From the NCBI RefSeq assembly GCF_020991365.1, contig NZ_JAJLRA010000042.1, positions 1-33,115 on the forward strand: a stretch of 33,115 nt of DNA, read 5' to 3'. Made by a program: the position numbers and the translations under genes. The stretch comes from Streptacidiphilus sp. ASG 303. Its GTDB lineage: Bacteria; Actinomycetota; Actinomycetes; Streptomycetales; Streptomycetaceae. A model generated the notes under the pieces. The model saw only the letters and a list, made by a program, of their open reading frames with translations, was not told the origin of the DNA and searched no databases. Shown here piece by piece: positions 7,351-13,464 of the stretch; position 1 is the first letter of the stretch; the number at the start of each line of letters is the position of its first letter.

Positions 7351-7801
7351 CCGCCCATCCCAGCACGGGACGGGCCGCCGGTCACGCCGGTTTCCCCCGC
7401 GCCCCCGCGGGGCCCCGCCTCCGAGGGCGCCACGGGCGGTACCGGCGGCTCCGGCACGGCCGCCCCGGGGCCGGGGTGCCCGCCGCCGGGGCCGACCCGC
7501 CCGGGCACCTGCGCCGGATCCCCGCGCCCCGCGGGGAAGCGGACGCGGGACGACCCGGTCTGCTACCTTCGCGACTGCGCGTCAGGTGTCGTGCGGTCAG
7601 GCGGGCTGCTCCGGGGAACCGGGACGCCACGGCCCGCGGCCGCCGCCCGCACCCGGCCCGCACCCGCCCGACGGGCGCCCTCGCGGCGCCGTGCGGATCC
7701 TGACCTCTCCCAGGAGACCCGCACCGCGGCCCCGCGCCGCGGACCACCGCCGCCCGCGCCCCTCAGGGGAGCACGGGCCGCCGCCCCTCCCTGGAGAGTC
7801 C

Positions 7802-8074
7802 GTGCCTGCCCCACCCATCCCCCCGGCCGTCCCGGCCACTGCGCAGGCGGCGCCCGCCGTTCCGGGCGCGGGCGGAGCCGCGCAGGTCCGCGGACCGCTG
7901 CCCTGCCGCATGCGGACCTGTGCCGCCCCGGCGGCCGGGGCGGCGCCGAGGCCCCCCGCGGACACCGGCGGCACGGCGCCGCCCGGCAGCCCGCCGCCCG
8001 CAAGCGCGGGGACGGACGCGCTGCGCCTGCCGCCGCGCGCCGACGCCGCCCGCCCGCCGCAGCCCCGCGGCTGA
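7802..8074 (+). CDS. Possible small Pro/Ala-rich ORF, 90 aa
   Basis: GTG at 7802 is preceded by GGAGAG (7793-7798), nearly the same site as that of the P-loop gene downstream. The product starts MPAPPIPPAVPATAQAAPAV and stays Pro/Ala/Gly/Arg-rich to the TGA at 8072-8074, with two cysteines in a CRMRTC segment. Composition resembles random GC-rich sequence and there is no recognisable domain, so it may be non-coding. If translated it would be the first gene of the P-loop/ABC unit. Confidence 0.2.
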   Translation: MPAPPIPPAVPATAQAAPAVPGAGGAAQVRGPLPCRMRTCAAPAAGAAPRPPADTGGTAPPGSPPPASAGTDALRLPPRADAARPPQPRG

Positions 8075-8146
8075 GGCGCACCCGCCGGGCGCGGCACCAC
8101 CGCGCCCGGTGCGCCGCCGCGGACGCCGCGGCTCCCCGGCCCGTCC

Positions 8147-8164
8147 GCGGGTCCGCGGACCCGC
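8147..8164. promoter_or_regulatory. 18-bp perfect palindrome
   Basis: GCGGGTCCGCGGACCCGC is its own reverse complement. It lies about 175 bases upstream of the P-loop gene start in a stretch without genes, so an operator is possible. Short palindromes are common in DNA of this GC content, so the call is weak. Confidence 0.3.
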
Positions 8165-8339
8165 CCGCGGGAGGGCCGCCCCGGAGGACGGGCCCCGCAC
8201 GGACGGACGCGTGCGCACCCGCGGAGGGGCGCCCGCACCGGCGGCCCGCTCCGGACGGACCGCCCCGCGCCCGGACGGCACCCCCACACGCAAGCCCCGG
8301 ACCGGGCCGAGCCCCGTCCGCGAGCCCCTGGAGAGACCC

Positions 8340-9497
8340 ATGGACCACGTGCACTTCGAAGGCGTCGCCGACGGCGGCGAGGCCAAGGTCGCGTACACCG
8401 CGCGCCGCCTGCTGGACGTCGGCTACGGCACCCTGCGCCCCCTGCGGGTGCGGACGGGCGAGCACCGGCCGCGGCGGGGGGACCTGGTGCTCTGCCGGGT
8501 CACCGGCATCGGGCAGCACCGCTTCCTGGGGCAGCGGGACGGCGCACGCAGCCGGCTGTTCCCGGGCGACGGCGTGGTGGTCGTCTACGGGGACCGGTAC
8601 GCGCCCGACCAGTTCGAGGCGGTGGTCCCCGACCACCTGGGCCCCTGCCACCTGGCGGCGGGCGGCGGGATCGCGGCGACCGTGGTCTCCCGGCACGCCT
8701 CCATGCTGCCGCCCACCGCGCTCCGCCCCGTCGGGCTGGTGGCGGGCGAGTCGGGGGCGACGCTCAACCTGCGGGCGCTCGCCCACCCGCTCGGGGCGGA
8801 CGGGCCGGTCCGGCCGCCGACCGTCGCGGTGCTGGGCACGTCGATGAACGCGGGGAAGTCCACCGCCGCGGCGTCCCTGGTCCGCGGCCTGGTGCGCGCG
8901 GGCCGCCGGGTGGGAGGGGCGAAGGTCACCGGCACCGGCGCGCCCGGCGACCCGGTGCTGCTGGCGGACGCGGGGGCGGCCTGCGTCGTCGACTTCACCG
9001 ACTTCGGCTTCCCCAGCACCTACCGGCTGGAGGCGGCCGAGGTCCTCGGCGTGCTGCGGGCGGCGGTGGCGCACCTGGCGCGGCAGTGCGTGGACGCGAT
9101 CGTGCTGGAGGTCGCCGACGGCATCCTGCAGCGCGAGACGTCGTTCCTGCTGGGGACGGGGACGTTCCGGCGCCGGGTCGGCGGTGTGCTCTTCGCCGCG
9201 CCGGACGCGGTGAGCGCGGTGGCGGGGTCCCGGTACCTCGCCGGGCAGGGCCTGCCGGTCCGGGCGGTCGGCGGGGTGTTCACCGCCTCCCCGCTCGCCG
9301 TGGCGGAGGCGGCGGAGCTGCTGGAGGTGCCGGTCTACGGGTCGGCGGACCTCTCGGAACCGGCCGTGGCGGCATCGGTCCTGACGGGGGCTCCGGCCGT
9401 GCCGGCGGCCCGGGTGCCGGACCGGGCCGTCCCGCAGGTGCCGGAGCCCGGCGGGCGGCAGCTGACGGGCTCCGGCGTCGGTGACGCGGTCCGGTGA
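8340..9497 (+). CDS. P-loop NTPase of DUF1611/dethiobiotin-synthetase-like type
   Basis: 385 residues. The ATG at 8340 has GGAGAG at 8330-8335. Residues 1-150 look like an all-beta domain (FPGDGVVVVYGDRY, then FEAVVPDHLG). From about 163 a P-loop domain begins: VAVLGTSMNAGKSTAAASL with Walker A Lys173, then GGAKVTGTGAPGDPVLLADA, CVVDFTDFGFPSTYRL, and DAIVLEVADGILQRET as the probable Walker B region. The layout resembles DUF1611, MobB and BioD proteins, whose members couple ATP to carboxylate or amide chemistry or act as metabolic GTP/ATPases; the reaction here is unknown. The stop codon overlaps the GTG of the ABC transporter (GTGA at 9494-9497), so the two are translationally coupled. Context suggests a role in making or exporting the peptide encoded downstream (inference). 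Confidence 0.7.
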   Translation: MDHVHFEGVADGGEAKVAYTARRLLDVGYGTLRPLRVRTGEHRPRRGDLVLCRVTGIGQHRFLGQRDGARSRLFPGDGVVVVYGDRYAPDQFEAVVPDHLGPCHLAAGGGIAATVVSRHASMLPPTALRPVGLVAGESGATLNLRALAHPLGADGPVRPPTVAVLGTSMNAGKSTAAASLVRGLVRAGRRVGGAKVTGTGAPGDPVLLADAGAACVVDFTDFGFPSTYRLEAAEVLGVLRAAVAHLARQCVDAIVLEVADGILQRETSFLLGTGTFRRRVGGVLFAAPDAVSAVAGSRYLAGQGLPVRAVGGVFTASPLAVAEAAELLEVPVYGSADLSEPAVAASVLTGAPAVPAARVPDRAVPQVPEPGGRQLTGSGVGDAVR

Positions 9498-11449
9498 CCC
9501 GCCGCGGCGGCCACCGCATCCGCATGCCGCGCACCCTGGGCGGCGGCCGGCGGCGGATGACGGTCCTGCTGGTGCTGGCCGGCCTGGGCCAGGCCCTGTG
9601 CGTGGTGGCGCTCTCCGTCGCCCTGCACGTGCTCGCCGCCCGGGCGCGGCACCCTCCCGGCCCGTCCGGGGCCGCGGCGGGCCCGGGCGGCGCGGGCGGC
9701 CCGTCCGGCGGGGCGGTGTGGGACTCCCCCGCGCACTGGCCGGCCGCCGCGCTGGTGGCGCTCCTGGCGGCGGCCGCGGTCGCCGCGGTGGCCCTCCAGG
9801 CGGTGCGCCCGCCCCTCGCGGAGCGCCTGGCGCAGAGCTACGTGCACGCCGTCCGGATGCTGCTCTTCGACCACCTGGCGCACAGCGTCGCGTGGGGCCC
9901 GGGGCGCCGCACGGTCGGGGTGACGGTGCTGCGGTTCACCGGCGACGCGGCGGCCCTGCGGCTCTGGGTGGGCCGAGGGCTGGCCTCGCTGCTCGTCGAC
10001 GGGGTGTCCGTGGCGGGCACCCTCGCCGCCCTCGCCGTCCTCTCCCCCGGGGCGGGCGTGGCGGCGGCCGTGCTGGTGGCGGCGACCGCCGCGGGCTCCG
10101 TCCTGGTCGGCAGGGGCCTGGCGGGGCGGCTGCGGGAGACGCGGCGGCACAGCGGGCGGCTCGCGGCGTTCGTCAACGAGCGCGTCACCCACACCGCCGT
10201 GCTGCAGTCGCTCGGACGGGTCCGGCAGGAGCGCCGGATGCTCTCCCGGCGCAGCAGGCGCCTCGGCGAGGCGTCGGTGGAGCAGGCCCGGTGGGCCGGG
10301 GCGCTGGGGGCGCTGGCGGAGGGCTGCCGGATCGGGACCGCCCTGGTGGTCGTGGGGGTGGGGTTCTCCGACGCGTCCCACCGGGAGCTGCTGGGGTGGC
10401 TGCTGCCCGTGGCGGGCTTCCTCGGCGGTCCGGTCTCCTCGCTGACGCGGGTCCAGGAGTACCGGCAGGCGTCGGCCGTGGCCCGGCGCCGCATCTGCGA
10501 GGTCCTCTCGGTCCCCGCTCCGCTGCGGCCGCCCGCCGGGGCGGGGGCGCTGCGCGGCGGGCCCGGCCGCCTGGACCTGGTCGACGTGTGCGTGGAGGGC
10601 GTCCTGGACGGCGTCACGGCGTGCGCGGCGCCCGGGTCGAGGGTCGCCGTCACCGGCCCCGCGGGCGGCGGCAAGTCGCTGCTGCTGGCGGTCGCCGCAC
10701 GGCTCGCGGTGCCGGACCGGGGGTCGGTCGCGCTGGACGGCCTGCCGCTGGCCCGCCACGACCCGGACTCGGTGCACCGTGCGGTGCGGCTGGTCAGCCG
10801 CGACCTGCCGCCGCTGCGGGGCAGCGTGTCGGCGGGCCTGCGCCACGGCGACCCGCCGCGGCGGCCCGCCGCGCCGCAGACGCGCCGTCCCGGACATCCC
10901 CCGGCGGACACGGCCCGCGACAGCGCCCGGGGGCACGCCCGGGACCACGCCCGCGACGGCGCCCGGGAGGACCCCCCGGACCCCGCCTGGGACGACCTGG
11001 CCGGACGTCTGGAGGGACGCCTGGCCGCCGCCCTGCCCCGGGGCCTGGACACGCGGGTGGGCGAGGGGGGCCTCGGCCTGTCGGCGGCGCTGCGCCACCG
11101 GGTGGCGCTGGTCCGGGCGGTGCGCAGCCGGCCGCCGGTGCTCCTCGTGGACGAGGCCGACCTGGCGGGGGAGCTGTTCGAGGAGGTGTGGCGGGACTAC
11201 CCCGGCAGCGTGGTGTGCGTGACCGCCGCCGCGCACCTCCTGGCCGGGGCGGACGCCGTGTGGGTGCTGGAGGGCGGCCGCCTGGCGGTCCTCCCGGCGC
11301 GGGCGGCGGCGCACCCGGCGGGGGCGGCGCGCCCGCCCTTCCACGGCCCCCGGCGGGCCCCGGGCGCCGCAGGGGCCGGCCGGGGTGCGCCCCCGGGTCC
11401 GGGGGCGCACCCCCGGACCGCCCCGGAACGCTCTGTTACAAACCAGTGA
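9494..11449 (+). CDS. ABC half-transporter (permease fused to ATPase) with degenerate motifs
   Basis: 651 residues. Residues 20-340 form the membrane domain with about six hydrophobic segments (VLLVLAGLGQALCVVALSVA, then AALVALLAAAAVAAVAL, and others) and an Ala/Gly/Pro-rich extracytoplasmic loop. The nucleotide-binding domain has Walker A GPAGGGKS with Lys394, Walker B LLVD553 followed by Glu554, and an H-loop His in AAHLL. The signature reads GLSAAL near residue 530 instead of LSGGQ, and the Q-loop region reads RLVSRDLPPL without the Gln. A low-complexity insertion (repeats of A-R-D/G-x) of some 45 residues sits between Walker A and the signature. The C-terminal tail (after about 600) is Pro/Ala/Gly-rich. 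Peptide and lipid exporters share this layout. GTG start by 4-base overlap with the P-loop gene. Confidence 0.8.
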   Translation: MTRRGGHRIRMPRTLGGGRRRMTVLLVLAGLGQALCVVALSVALHVLAARARHPPGPSGAAAGPGGAGGPSGGAVWDSPAHWPAAALVALLAAAAVAAVALQAVRPPLAERLAQSYVHAVRMLLFDHLAHSVAWGPGRRTVGVTVLRFTGDAAALRLWVGRGLASLLVDGVSVAGTLAALAVLSPGAGVAAAVLVAATAAGSVLVGRGLAGRLRETRRHSGRLAAFVNERVTHTAVLQSLGRVRQERRMLSRRSRRLGEASVEQARWAGALGALAEGCRIGTALVVVGVGFSDASHRELLGWLLPVAGFLGGPVSSLTRVQEYRQASAVARRRICEVLSVPAPLRPPAGAGALRGGPGRLDLVDVCVEGVLDGVTACAAPGSRVAVTGPAGGGKSLLLAVAARLAVPDRGSVALDGLPLARHDPDSVHRAVRLVSRDLPPLRGSVSAGLRHGDPPRRPAAPQTRRPGHPPADTARDSARGHARDHARDGAREDPPDPAWDDLAGRLEGRLAAALPRGLDTRVGEGGLGLSAALRHRVALVRAVRSRPPVLLVDEADLAGELFEEVWRDYPGSVVCVTAAAHLLAGADAVWVLEGGRLAVLPARAAAHPAGAARPPFHGPRRAPGAAGAGRGAPPGPGAHPRTAPERSVTNQ

Positions 11450-11470
11450 CACAGAGTCGCAGTTCGGCAC

Positions 11471-11500
11471 TTGCGGCGACCTCCCGCGAGGCCGTAGCGT
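11471..11500 (+). promoter_or_regulatory. Putative promoter of the 71-residue peptide gene
   Basis: TTGCGG at 11471-11476 and TAGCGT at 11495-11500 are separated by 18 bases, a fair match to the streptomycete vegetative consensus (TTGAC, 16-18 bases, TAg--T). The transcript would begin near 11507, inside the large inverted repeat that follows, and would have an 88-base leader. Confidence 0.5.
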
Positions 11501-11537
11501 CCGGTGTCGTCGGACAGGACGTCCGACGAGACCGGAC
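11499..11537 (+). promoter_or_regulatory. 17-bp imperfect inverted repeat over the predicted transcription start
   Basis: GTCCGGTGTCGTCGGAC (11499-11515) and GTCCGACGAGACCGGAC (11521-11537) pair with one mismatch around a five-base loop, AGGAC. The repeat overlaps the end of the -10 box and the predicted start site, 58 bases before the peptide GTG. It may be an operator, a 5' mRNA hairpin, or a terminator for the ABC gene ending at 11449. Confidence 0.6.
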
Positions 11538-11594
11538 GACGGGCCGCCGGCCCGCCGCCCCTTCCCACCCCCACTCCCCCATGAGGAGATCCCC

Positions 11595-11810
11595 GTGATC
11601 GACGCCACCGAGCTCGAGAACGAGTCCGCCGAGCTGCTGCCGGGCCGCGAGGCCCTGGGCCGGTTCAGCCTCAACCTCACGAAGCTGACCTGCGTCACCA
11701 AGCACGTGGCCAACGTCCACGCCGACAACAGCTCGTACGCGGTGAACAACTTCTCGGACGACGCCGTCGCCCAGGCCAACTCCGGCCAGTGGATCAGCGT
11801 CAACCAGTGA
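11595..11810 (+). CDS. 71-residue peptide resembling a RiPP precursor
   Basis: GTG at 11595 has GAGGAGAT at 11583-11590, a strong site. The N-terminal part (ATELENESAELLPGREALGRF, here split: ATELENESAELL then PGREALGRF) is acidic and helical like a leader peptide, with an ELLPxRE-type motif. From about residue 24 the sequence becomes Asn/Ser/Val/Ala-rich (FSLNLTKLTCVTKHVANVH, then SSYAVNNFSDDAVAQANSG) and ends WISVNQ. There is one Cys (residue 33) and no signal peptide. Codon bias is good. The length and two-part layout suit a ribosomally made, modified peptide, and an ABC half-transporter gene lies directly upstream. No known maturation enzyme (LanM, LanB, lasso cyclase, YcaO, radical SAM) is in the window, so the RiPP call is inference. 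I do not recognise the family with certainty. Confidence 0.65.
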   Translation: MIDATELENESAELLPGREALGRFSLNLTKLTCVTKHVANVHADNSSYAVNNFSDDAVAQANSGQWISVNQ

Positions 11811-12053
11811 CGCACCGGGGCCGGGGCGCGTGGCCGCCCCCGCCCGGAAGGCGCTAGGAGAGGCCCTCTCCCCGACCGCCCTCCCGCAGCCCGGACCCCC
11901 GGGGGTCCACCGCTCCGGCGGCGGACGGCCCGGATCGGGCGGCGGGGCGGACACGGGAGGCGGGTGCGCCGACCGGACCGCCGGACGACCCTCGCGGGAC
12001 CGGCCCCAGCAGGACCGGCTGCCACCGGTCCGACCGTCGAACCGTGGAAGGAC

Positions 12054-12092
12054 GGTGTTCCCGGCGGCGCGGCACTCGCCGCCGGGAACACC
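12054..12092 (+). terminator. 16-bp perfect hairpin downstream of the peptide gene
   Basis: GGTGTTCCCGGCGGCG at 12054-12069 is the exact reverse complement of 12077-12092; the loop is CGGCACT. It lies 244 bases after the peptide stop. It is probably the terminator or a 3'-end-protecting structure for the peptide transcript, separating it from the ligase gene. No U tract follows. Confidence 0.65.
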
Positions 12093-12173
12093 CCGCCGCA
12101 CGGCCCGCCCGCGGGCCGCACCGCCCCGGCCCCGTCCGGGGCCTTCTGCCGTGCGCCGCAGGGCGCCGGCGGG

Positions 12174-12234
12174 CGCAGGACGCAGGACGCAGGACGCAGG
12201 ACGCAGGACGCAGGACGCAGGACGCAGGACGCAG
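12174..12234. repeat. Tandem repeat (CGCAGGA), eight full copies plus five bases
   Basis: Eight uninterrupted copies of the 7-base unit CGCAGGA run from 12174 to 12229, followed by CGCAG. The unit length is not a multiple of three, so it would encode all three phases if translated. It lies between genes. Perfect identity between copies suggests recent expansion by slippage and likely variation between strains. Confidence 0.95.
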
Positions 12235-12330
12235 CGTACGGCCCGCCGGGCCGCCCCGCCCCCGGACGCGGCGCGCGGGCGGCGCCCGCGCCGGTCCCCC
12301 TCCCCCGCGCCGGTCCCGCTCCCCCGCACG

Positions 12331-12358
12331 ACCCCGGTTCCGGACCGGGAACCGGGGT
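12331..12358 (+). promoter_or_regulatory. 11-bp hairpin immediately upstream of the ligase start
   Basis: ACCCCGGTTCC (12331-12341) pairs perfectly with GGAACCGGGGT (12348-12358). The structure ends 11 bases before the GTG of the carboxylate-amine ligase and would cover the only purine-rich stretch available as a ribosome binding site. Operator or translational control is possible. Confidence 0.45.
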
Positions 12359-12369
12359 ACGCGTGACCC

Positions 12370-13464
12370 GTGATCAGTGTGGGCGTGGAGGAGGAGTTCC
12401 TGCTGCTGGACCCGGTCACCGGTCTCCCGGTGGCCCAGGCCGAGCAGGTGCAGGCCGCGGCCCGTCTGCAGCCCCCGCTGGGCGACCGCGAGCTCTCCCC
12501 CGAGCTGCTCCAGGCGCAGGTCGAGACCGCCACCCCCGTGTGCCGCGACCTGTCGGAGGTCGGCGGCCACCTGCTGCGGCTGCGGCACGCGACGGGCGTC
12601 GCGGCCGAGAAGTGCGGGTGCCGGATCGCGGCGTGCGCGGCGGCGCCGTTCTCCTGCGGCACGCCGGTCCCCGTGGCCGACAGCCCACGCTACCGGGCGA
12701 TGCGGGAGCAGGCGCCGCGCCTCGTGGAGGAGCAGCTGATCAACGGCATGCACGTCCACGTGGGCGTGGAGGACCGCAGGACGGGGGTGGCGGTCCTCAA
12801 CCGCATCCGCCCCTGGCTGCCCGTCCTGCTGGCGCTGTCCGCCAGCTCGCCCCTGTGGTGCGGCGCGGACACCGGTTTCGCGAGCTGGCGCACCCTGGTC
12901 TTCGGCCGGTGGCCGGTCAGCGGCCCGCCGCCGCACTTCGCGGACGCGGACGACTACGAGGAGCGCTGCCGGACCCTGCTGGGGACCGGGACCATCCGGG
13001 ACCTGGGCCAGCTGTACTGGCACGCGCGGCTGTCGGAGCGCTACCCGACCGTGGAGGTCAGGGTCGCGGACGTGCAGCTGCGGTGCGACGACGCGGTGAT
13101 GGTCGCGGGCCTGACCCGCGCGCTGGTGGCGACCGCGCTGCACGAGGAGGAGCGCCGCCTGCCGCAGACGCCCCCTCCCGGCGAGCTGCTGGCCGCGGCC
13201 ACCTGGCACGCGGCCCGCTCCGGCCTGGGCGGGAACCTCGTCGACCCGCGCACCGGCGCGGCCCGGCGGGCGGGGGACGTCCTCGGCTCCCTCCTGGACC
13301 ACGTGGCGGCCGCCCTGGACGAGGCCGGGGACACCCGCGAGGTCGCCTCCCTGGTGCACCGGCTCCTGCGGGAGGGCACGGGCGCCGACCGGCAGCGGGA
13401 GGCGCTGCGGCGCGGCCCGCTCGCCGTCGTCGACCTGGTGACCAGGGAGACCGTCTCGGGCTGA
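12370..13464 (+). CDS. Carboxylate-amine ligase, glutamate-cysteine ligase type 2 (YbdK/GCS2) family
   Basis: 364 residues, normal for the family. It starts with the hallmark [17 protein letters not shown], whose glutamates bind metal-ATP, and carries [33 protein letters not shown] and the late motif [11 protein letters not shown]. Members form amide bonds between a carboxylate and an amine at ATP expense; some make gamma-glutamylcysteine, others have unknown substrates. Several Cys (residues near 80-97: [17 protein letters not shown]) are unusual. GTG at 12370 is chosen because the family begins at this motif; a ribosome binding site is not evident, and the hairpin at 12331-12358 abuts it. 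The gene lies 559 bases from the peptide gene, so membership in a peptide-modification locus is only possible. It ends 15 bases from the convergent amylase gene. Confidence 0.85.

Follow-up and report, generated by a model that had tools for sequence, protein, structure and literature searches.

The window analysed here is a 33,115-nt stretch of the genome of Streptacidiphilus sp. ASG 303 (contig NZ_JAJLRA010000042.1 of assembly GCF_020991365.1), and the element in question is a gene for a 71-residue leader–core peptide on its forward strand (positions 11595–11810, GTG start). The gene is preceded by an inferred promoter and an operator-like element, is followed by a GC-rich hairpin, and lies between a gene pair for a P-loop protein and an ATP-binding cassette (ABC) half-transporter on one side and a gene for a GCS2-type carboxylate–amine ligase on the other. 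A first-pass annotation, made from the letters of the window, had proposed that these four genes form one undescribed peptide system. All four open reading frames (ORFs) are present where it had placed them, and the 71-residue ORF is precursor-like as described, its leader half conserved and its core half distinct, in a family without a database match. However, the proposed composition of the system did not survive, in that relatives of the peptide adjoin genes for an M50-like protease and a secreted protein rather than genes for P-loop, ABC and GCS2 proteins. Judged from these neighbourhoods, the operon of peptide(s), protease and secreted protein is an undescribed actinomycete system, and the window copy is its orphan member.

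With the peptide as query, a pattern-based scan of a genome collection found 93 coding stretches, of which the best 80 correspond to 79 distinct loci in other genomes, some genomes supplying more than one. These loci, from Streptomyces, Streptacidiphilus, Actinacidiphila and further relatives, encode full-length or nearly full-length relatives with 51–63% identity. The genome of the window itself holds further copies at C111 (90% identical), at C44:39241 and as a pair in C167. A chance ORF is excluded by the relatives in 79 loci and by the additional copies in the window genome. Its distribution is patchy rather than universal, since a match was found in 13 of 61 genomes (the own genome and 60 relatives) and, within the genus to which one Streptomyces match belongs, in 8 of 101 genomes (that of the match included). 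The peptide had no match in Pfam, NCBIfam or PHROGs, and assignment to a known family was rejected. A PDB sequence search returned two kinesin coiled-coil chains (E 0.55 and 0.81), which were judged to be chance, and a phage origin was rejected after no match was found among 50,697 phage records. Among 72,556 plasmid records the peptide occurs in one, a linear Streptomyces plasmid (L157, NZ_CP107797.1), on which it is followed by the protease and secreted-protein genes, all annotated as hypothetical. In open-licence full texts, with sequences in figures and supplements outside the search, the leader motif LLPGREAL was absent; likewise, none of these texts paired peptide zinc metalloprotease with Streptomyces or DUF1611 with ribosomally synthesised and post-translationally modified peptides (RiPPs). 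The mining of RiPP recognition element (RRE) families in the daptide paper (PMC10036551) may include the peptide/protease family in its supplement.

The anatomy of the peptide was analysed in an alignment of the window peptide with 74 others, picked from the 91 that were left after removal of sequences with >93% identity among 144 called peptides. In the leader part (residues 1–22, positions 11595–11660, forward strand), A12 and L14–L21, i.e., LLPGREAL, are invariant in 75 of 75 aligned sequences, and LLPGREAL is present in 143 of the 144 called peptides of loci L005–L083; the C44 copy reads LLPRREAL. The core part (residues 39–71, positions 11709–11807, forward strand) shows a two-strand pattern, with A43, N45, S47, A49, N51, S54, A59, Q65, I67 and Q71 invariant among the 75, all of which end in Gln. 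Between residues 40 and 71, 11 of 16 odd positions have an entropy of at most 0.2 bits (A43, N45, S47, A49, N51, A59, 61, 63, Q65, I67 and Q71), whereas 15 of 16 even positions have at least 1.5 bits, the exception being S54. The mean odd/even gap of 1.6 bits was reached by none of 20,000 shuffles. The alternation is, by this measure, the pattern of predicted strands with one buried or stacked face, i.e., a strand motif with a conserved alternating face as found in functional amyloids. An AlphaFold2 model of the peptide places strands at residues 40–50 and 60–70 with low confidence. The comparison of a conserved leader with variable cores, which had been suggested as a check, thus gave a divided answer: the leader is near-invariant as anticipated, but alternate core residues are largely invariant as well.

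The leader can also be joined to a different core. In L059 (Streptacidiphilus jiangxiensis, 7624–8430, minus strand), a peptide with the leader MFSTEELEAQKAGLLPGREALGVFRF continues into a long GHDRGGD repeat core, and its gene is followed in the same orientation, after 125 bases, by a gene for a protease homologue. Since the same leader and the same protease type are paired here with an unrelated core, the leader is likely a recognition element, on the strength of this one case. The near-invariant leader, the distinct core and the reuse of the leader in L059 together describe a leader–core precursor of the kind known from RiPPs.

A stand-alone unit of promoter/operator, peptide gene and hairpin (11486–12089, forward strand) aligns over 623 columns, with 79% identity, to a segment at C111 (L118, 8960–9566; blastn), which there lies ahead of the protease and secreted-protein genes. 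The similarity stops 38 bases before the start of the C111 protease gene. By this comparison, the window unit is a duplicate from the protease operon of the same genome. The peptide ORF is 93% identical to its C111 counterpart in DNA, with 15 differences distributed over codon positions 1, 2 and 3 as 5, 3 and 7; in the flanks, identity drops to about 69% (74 of 107 columns on the 5′ side, 200 of 290 on the 3′ side). The nonsynonymous and synonymous substitution rates (dN and dS) are 0.051 and 0.157 against C111, and 0.27 and 0.34 against the C167 copy. Another solo peptide copy of the same genome, L119 (9242–10445), has a methyltransferase-like gene 188 bases downstream.

The duplicated unit is closed by the GC-rich hairpin with a 16-bp main stem (12054–12092, forward strand), whose parent counterpart lies between the peptide and protease genes. 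The window and C111 hairpins fold with −42.4 and −44.3 kcal/mol (z −5.1 and −5.8), respectively, and differ by paired changes in a by-eye comparison. A long GC-rich hairpin was also present in all eight peptide–protease gaps folded from other loci (z −5.2 to −1.0, with seven of the eight at −2.15 or lower). The structured bases that had been noted 3′ of the peptide are therefore real in part, as this hairpin brought along with the duplicated unit. The peptide gene has a predicted promoter/operator of its own within the 145 nt that separate it from the ABC gene, as well as its own hairpin, and is therefore unlikely to be co-transcribed with the ligase gene.

The parent operon was delineated by simple codon-bias gene calling, clustering and a tblastn check. 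Two peptides are encoded within 1.5 kb of each other in 64 of the 79 loci and one in the other 15. In 63 of the 67 testable loci the protease gene follows downstream, within 2.5 kb and on the peptide strand, and in 62 of 65 the secreted-protein gene is reached within 4.5 kb; 58 of 77 have a divergent XRE gene no more than 1.2 kb upstream. Among relatives of the window genome, all six loci read show peptide(s), protease and secreted protein. No gene for a RiPP-modifying enzyme was common to most of the 79 loci, linked genes being the scope of this result, in agreement with the earlier remark that no standard enzyme of this kind accompanies the peptide.

The inferred promoter of the window peptide (11471–11500, forward strand), as read from the sequence, consists of TTGCGG (11471–11476), an 18-nt spacer and TAGCGT (11495–11500), the same arrangement as in the family consensus TTGCGC-18-TAGTGT. 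The operator-like element (11496–11539, forward strand) overlaps the −10 hexamer and includes the palindrome GTCGGAC-N5-GTCCGAC (11509–11527). A set of operators was collected with a 40-base seed from the peptide loci, requiring at least 26 matched positions upstream of the first peptide, and was obtained for 66 of the 79 loci; its family consensus is TTGCGC-18-TAGTGTCCAATCTCGTTGGACAGC-n-CGTCCGACC. The palindrome pattern at 2 mismatches is expected 0.94 times in the GC-rich window and is thus not rare alone, so the position weight matrix (PWM), built from the 66 sites, all of them from genomes other than that of the window, is the real test of the operator. In the 33-kb window this matrix scores 18.6 at 11496, and the next independent site scores −26.0. 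The matrix picks 11496 as the single clear site, and the window peptide seems to be wired to the control of the protease operons although it stands solo. The matrix also finds the peptide promoters of L118, L119 and L120, and in six loci of relatives its best site is located just upstream of the peptides, with five high scores and a weak one in L140 (−0.4).

A second pattern, written from four sites of the own genome, was run over that whole genome with at most 3 mismatches. It returned these four sites, each before a peptide gene (by construction), a fifth site at C44:86539, reverse-strand readings of three of these sites, and one unexplained 3-mismatch match at G000:C189:246943–246970; the reversed-pattern control gave none. 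The fifth site (L156, 6520–6871, from G000:C44:86539 on) has 1 mismatch and precedes a decayed-looking peptide copy with a Gly-Leu expansion. In three Streptomyces genomes the operator pattern occurs only at the peptide operon. The XRE protein encoded in C167 is proposed as the binder of the operator-like element, based on the divergent orientation of the XRE gene relative to the operon.

The protease shows the motifs HEFGH and LDGY in 13 of 13 aligned sequences. For the two proteins scanned, the best NCBIfam match is daptide_HExxH, with 77.5 and 64.9 bits (cut-off 300), and the LiaK/YydH model gives 42.4 and 30.4 bits (cut-off 225); a PDB profile search with the protease returned nothing. In daptides, as described in PMC10036551, RRE domains are fused to the site-2 protease that removes the leader. 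The daptide model aligns, from model position 18, to residues 140–411 of one protease in its sub-cut-off match, making an RRE in the protease plausible. The operon further resembles the daptide clusters, as presented in that paper, in having several short precursors (MpaA in daptides), a conserved acidic leader motif (ELExMEAP in daptides) and an adjoining membrane HExxH protease (MpaP). However, the protease here falls well short of the daptide cut-off, genes for an aminotransferase, a dehydrogenase, a methyltransferase or an ABC protein are not conserved with the peptide, the core ends in Gln rather than in the Thr described there, no genes for Thr-converting enzymes are common to the loci, and a secreted partner and an operator are present in addition. 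Epipeptides (EpeP/YydH/LiaK) likewise involve an M50 protease, and EpeP is thought, according to a review (PMC10885120), to both cleave and export its small peptide. In contrast to the epipeptides, no radical S-adenosylmethionine epimerase was seen here, the match to their protease model is weak, and the cores are paired and strongly patterned.

The secreted protein has four invariant Cys residues (35 aligned). Its structural model, of good confidence (predicted local distance difference test, pLDDT, 84.7; predicted template-modelling score, pTM, 0.80), runs through six long strands in succession, then two helices and a final strand; the first ~30 residues, signal-peptide-like by eye, are of low confidence in it. 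The profile of the secreted protein aligns with the peptide core across an A-x-N-x-S-x-A-x-N motif with a score of 24.0, which was reached by none of 200 column shuffles (mean 10.9, standard deviation 2.2, maximum 21.6), while the reversed profile scored 13.3 and the protease 7.8. This likeness may reflect distant homology or shared strand chemistry. The structural searches gave weak rows for FapC (Foldseek E 0.085), CsgA (Z 3.5), SufB/D and adenylyl cyclase, all with Z < 4, and the two rows of a PDB profile search with the secreted protein (E 0.33 and 0.56) were judged to be chance. As curli (CsgA/CsgB), FapC and chaplin/rodlin systems are generally described, they share with the present cores Asn/Ser/Gln-rich strands with one conserved face, and here a secreted partner has a related pattern. 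The system differs from them in lacking a sequence family match and in having a leader, presumably removed by the metalloprotease, instead of a signal peptide. Beside the operon, 15 rodlin-like genes are clustered in 8 of the 79 loci, and two of their products scanned against the NCBIfam rodlin model scored 184 and 183 bits (cut-off 75). The rodlin adjacency and the strand pattern together give a hint of surface or matrix material.

Based on these observations, we favour on balance, with modest confidence, the reading that the window peptide is a solo paralogue of an undescribed actinomycete leader-peptide/protease/secreted-protein system whose cores build extracellular beta-rich material. The operon anatomy, the operator and the duplication are read from the sequences themselves, and from them we infer leader removal, export and assembly as follows. 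The XRE protein would control the peptide copies, and the hairpin between substrate and enzyme genes would let the peptide be made in excess over the protease. The N-terminal part of the protease would bind the LLPGREAL leader, and the protease would cut the leader off and help the core across the membrane; for the window copy this would happen in trans, with a protease from C111 or C167. Once outside the cell, the cores, with their invariant A/N/S/Q/I face, could pair as beta-ladders, either mutually or with the secreted partner, to give surface or matrix material. More tentatively, an extended version may be put forward, a hitherto unrecognised secretion and assembly pathway of mycelial actinomycetes in which an exchangeable LLPGREAL leader routes structural cores (the A/N/S/Q beta-ladder and, once, the GHDRGGD repeat) unmodified through a cutting and exporting protease, the secreted protein with the same ladder nucleates the polymer, the XRE operator serves nearly this single purpose, and solo copies feed the assembly.

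Where M50 membrane proteases occur in peptide clusters, they are known to act late in the making of modified natural products. Here, a distant M50 relative is part of a conserved operon whose products, apparently, are peptides with a structural pattern but no modification, alongside a secreted partner. Chaplins, rodlins and SapB form surface material of filamentous actinomycetes, and the system, if read correctly, would stand beside them as a new way in which these organisms export and assemble surface or matrix material. Its leader and protease would also make a compact pair with which different cores could be exported. The operator is a bioinformatic handle in its own right: in the four genomes scanned it marks peptide genes and otherwise one decayed-looking copy and one weak, unexplained site.

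Several observations weigh against this reading. The operator is missing from 13 of the 79 loci, and 19 of 77 testable loci have no divergent XRE gene within 1.2 kb. Four single-peptide loci (L031, L032, L036 and L056) have no protease gene just downstream; they belong to a subgroup that also lacks the operator, and in two of them a second peptide and a protease are encoded ~8 kb further on. The peptide model is poor (pLDDT 65, pTM 0.22), the hhalign probability for the likeness between core and secreted protein is 17–22%, and a structure search with the secreted protein gave no match at E 0.001 or better, an absence that excludes no family. A protease scanned whole against Pfam (L120) had no match at E 0.1, so that the M50 label derives from the motifs and the weak NCBIfam matches, and no leader-binding or RRE (PqqD-like) domain was recognised by Pfam in any of five N-terminal stretches. 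Against the C44 copy, dN of the peptide (0.21) exceeds dS (0.11). Because this ratio and that for C167 are less tidy, substitution ratios alone do not show constraint and are usable only against C111; constraint shows instead in the leader and the core face, both conserved across genera. The rodlin linkage may represent one event in one clade, since most species with rodlin-adjacent loci are whorl-forming streptomycetes. Finally, a gene for a flavin adenine dinucleotide (FAD)-dependent monooxygenase-like protein stands directly 3′ of the secreted-protein gene in 20 loci (e.g., L010, 13488–14663, with 19 others alike), and it may have a role in modification. Further shared genes follow at this site (clusters 9 and 10, in 27 loci each), and the FAD gene is therefore probably chromosomal context.

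The operon could instead produce a bioactive, RiPP-like or bacteriocin pair, in which two peptides, freed of their leaders by the protease and possibly modified by the monooxygenase-like protein or an unlinked enzyme, act together on competitors or as a signal and the secreted protein provides immunity or serves as a receptor. The frequent pairing of peptide genes, the dedicated operator and the distant likeness of the protease to the epipeptide and daptide maturases (PMC10885120 and PMC10036551) are what such a pair would lead one to expect, as is the position of the FAD gene. However, a modifying-enzyme gene common to most loci was not found, the core face is invariant across genera, unlike the typically variable cores of bacteriocins, and the partner is secreted, with invariant Cys residues and a related strand pattern. 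We consider this alternative unlikely, yet the strongest of those weighed.

Less probable still is that the window holds a duplicate in decay, at present without function, comparable to the degenerate-looking fifth copy at C44, which retains a near-intact operator. The window copy has neither a protease nor a partner gene adjoining, it starts with GTG, and its operator half-sites have drifted, all of which would fit decay. However, the ORF has kept far more identity to C111 than its flanks, the leader and the core face are intact, and the operator and the hairpin are retained, the latter with paired changes.

Modification of the peptide by the P-loop protein and the GCS2 ligase, with export by the ABC protein, as first suggested from their adjacency and the coupled P-loop/ABC pair, is very improbable and was rejected on neighbourhood evidence: another exporter is conceivable for a window copy without a protease gene, but the window P-loop, ABC and GCS2 proteins each have matches in 0 of the 79 peptide loci (tblastn, E 1e-6, flanks of at most 10 kb), which was the check proposed for the P-loop and ABC genes, the P-loop/ABC module is peptide-free wherever read, GCS2 is a general gene, and the peptide gene carries a predicted promoter/operator and a hairpin of its own.

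The P-loop gene (8340–9497, forward strand, 385 residues) and the gene for the ABC half-transporter (9494–11449, forward strand, 651 residues) overlap in GTGA, and their coordinates agree with the coupling noted in the first-pass annotation. The P-loop protein has sub-cut-off Pfam matches to DUF1611, CbiA and AAA_26 (DUF1611 at 18.4 bits, cut-off 25). The ABC protein matches ABC_membrane and ABC_tran in Pfam and has a Walker A motif; as read from its sequence, LSAALRHR replaces the usual signature, so that its earlier description as degenerate is a fair label. Relatives of the P-loop protein (41–43% identity, E 1e-20 or better) were found in five of the 60 relatives and in the own genome. Six of their ten places were read (L131–L136); each has the P-loop gene, then a gene of 350–394 codons, then an ABC transporter gene, with no peptide gene found in any of these stretches. 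The middle protein had no Pfam match in the three cases scanned, and the window version consists of two genes, without the middle one. Among the five genomes with P-loop relatives, only G023 has the peptide, on a different contig. By gene order and co-occurrence, the P-loop/ABC pair is a conserved module separate from the peptide, with the P-loop gene as its first member, and a link of the ABC gene to the peptide system is not supported.

The GCS2 ligase gene (12370–13464, forward strand, 364 residues) likewise lies outside the peptide system. Its product matches GCS2 in Pfam with 190.6 bits and a glutamate–cysteine-ligase-like NCBIfam model with 430.6 bits (cut-off 332), and relatives of it were found in 50 of the 61 genomes searched for the peptide.

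Two minor observations concern repeats and mobile-element-like genes. Short genes of the IS3-like transposase type (two proteins scanned), possibly domesticated, lie near peptide genes in 13 of the 79 loci (L018, L031, L032, L035, L036, L037, L046, L051, L056, L060, L067, L076 and L079), eight of which fall in the operator-less subgroup. In the window, tandem GGACGCA repeats occupy ~12173–12232, between the hairpin and the GCS2 gene and outside the duplicated unit.

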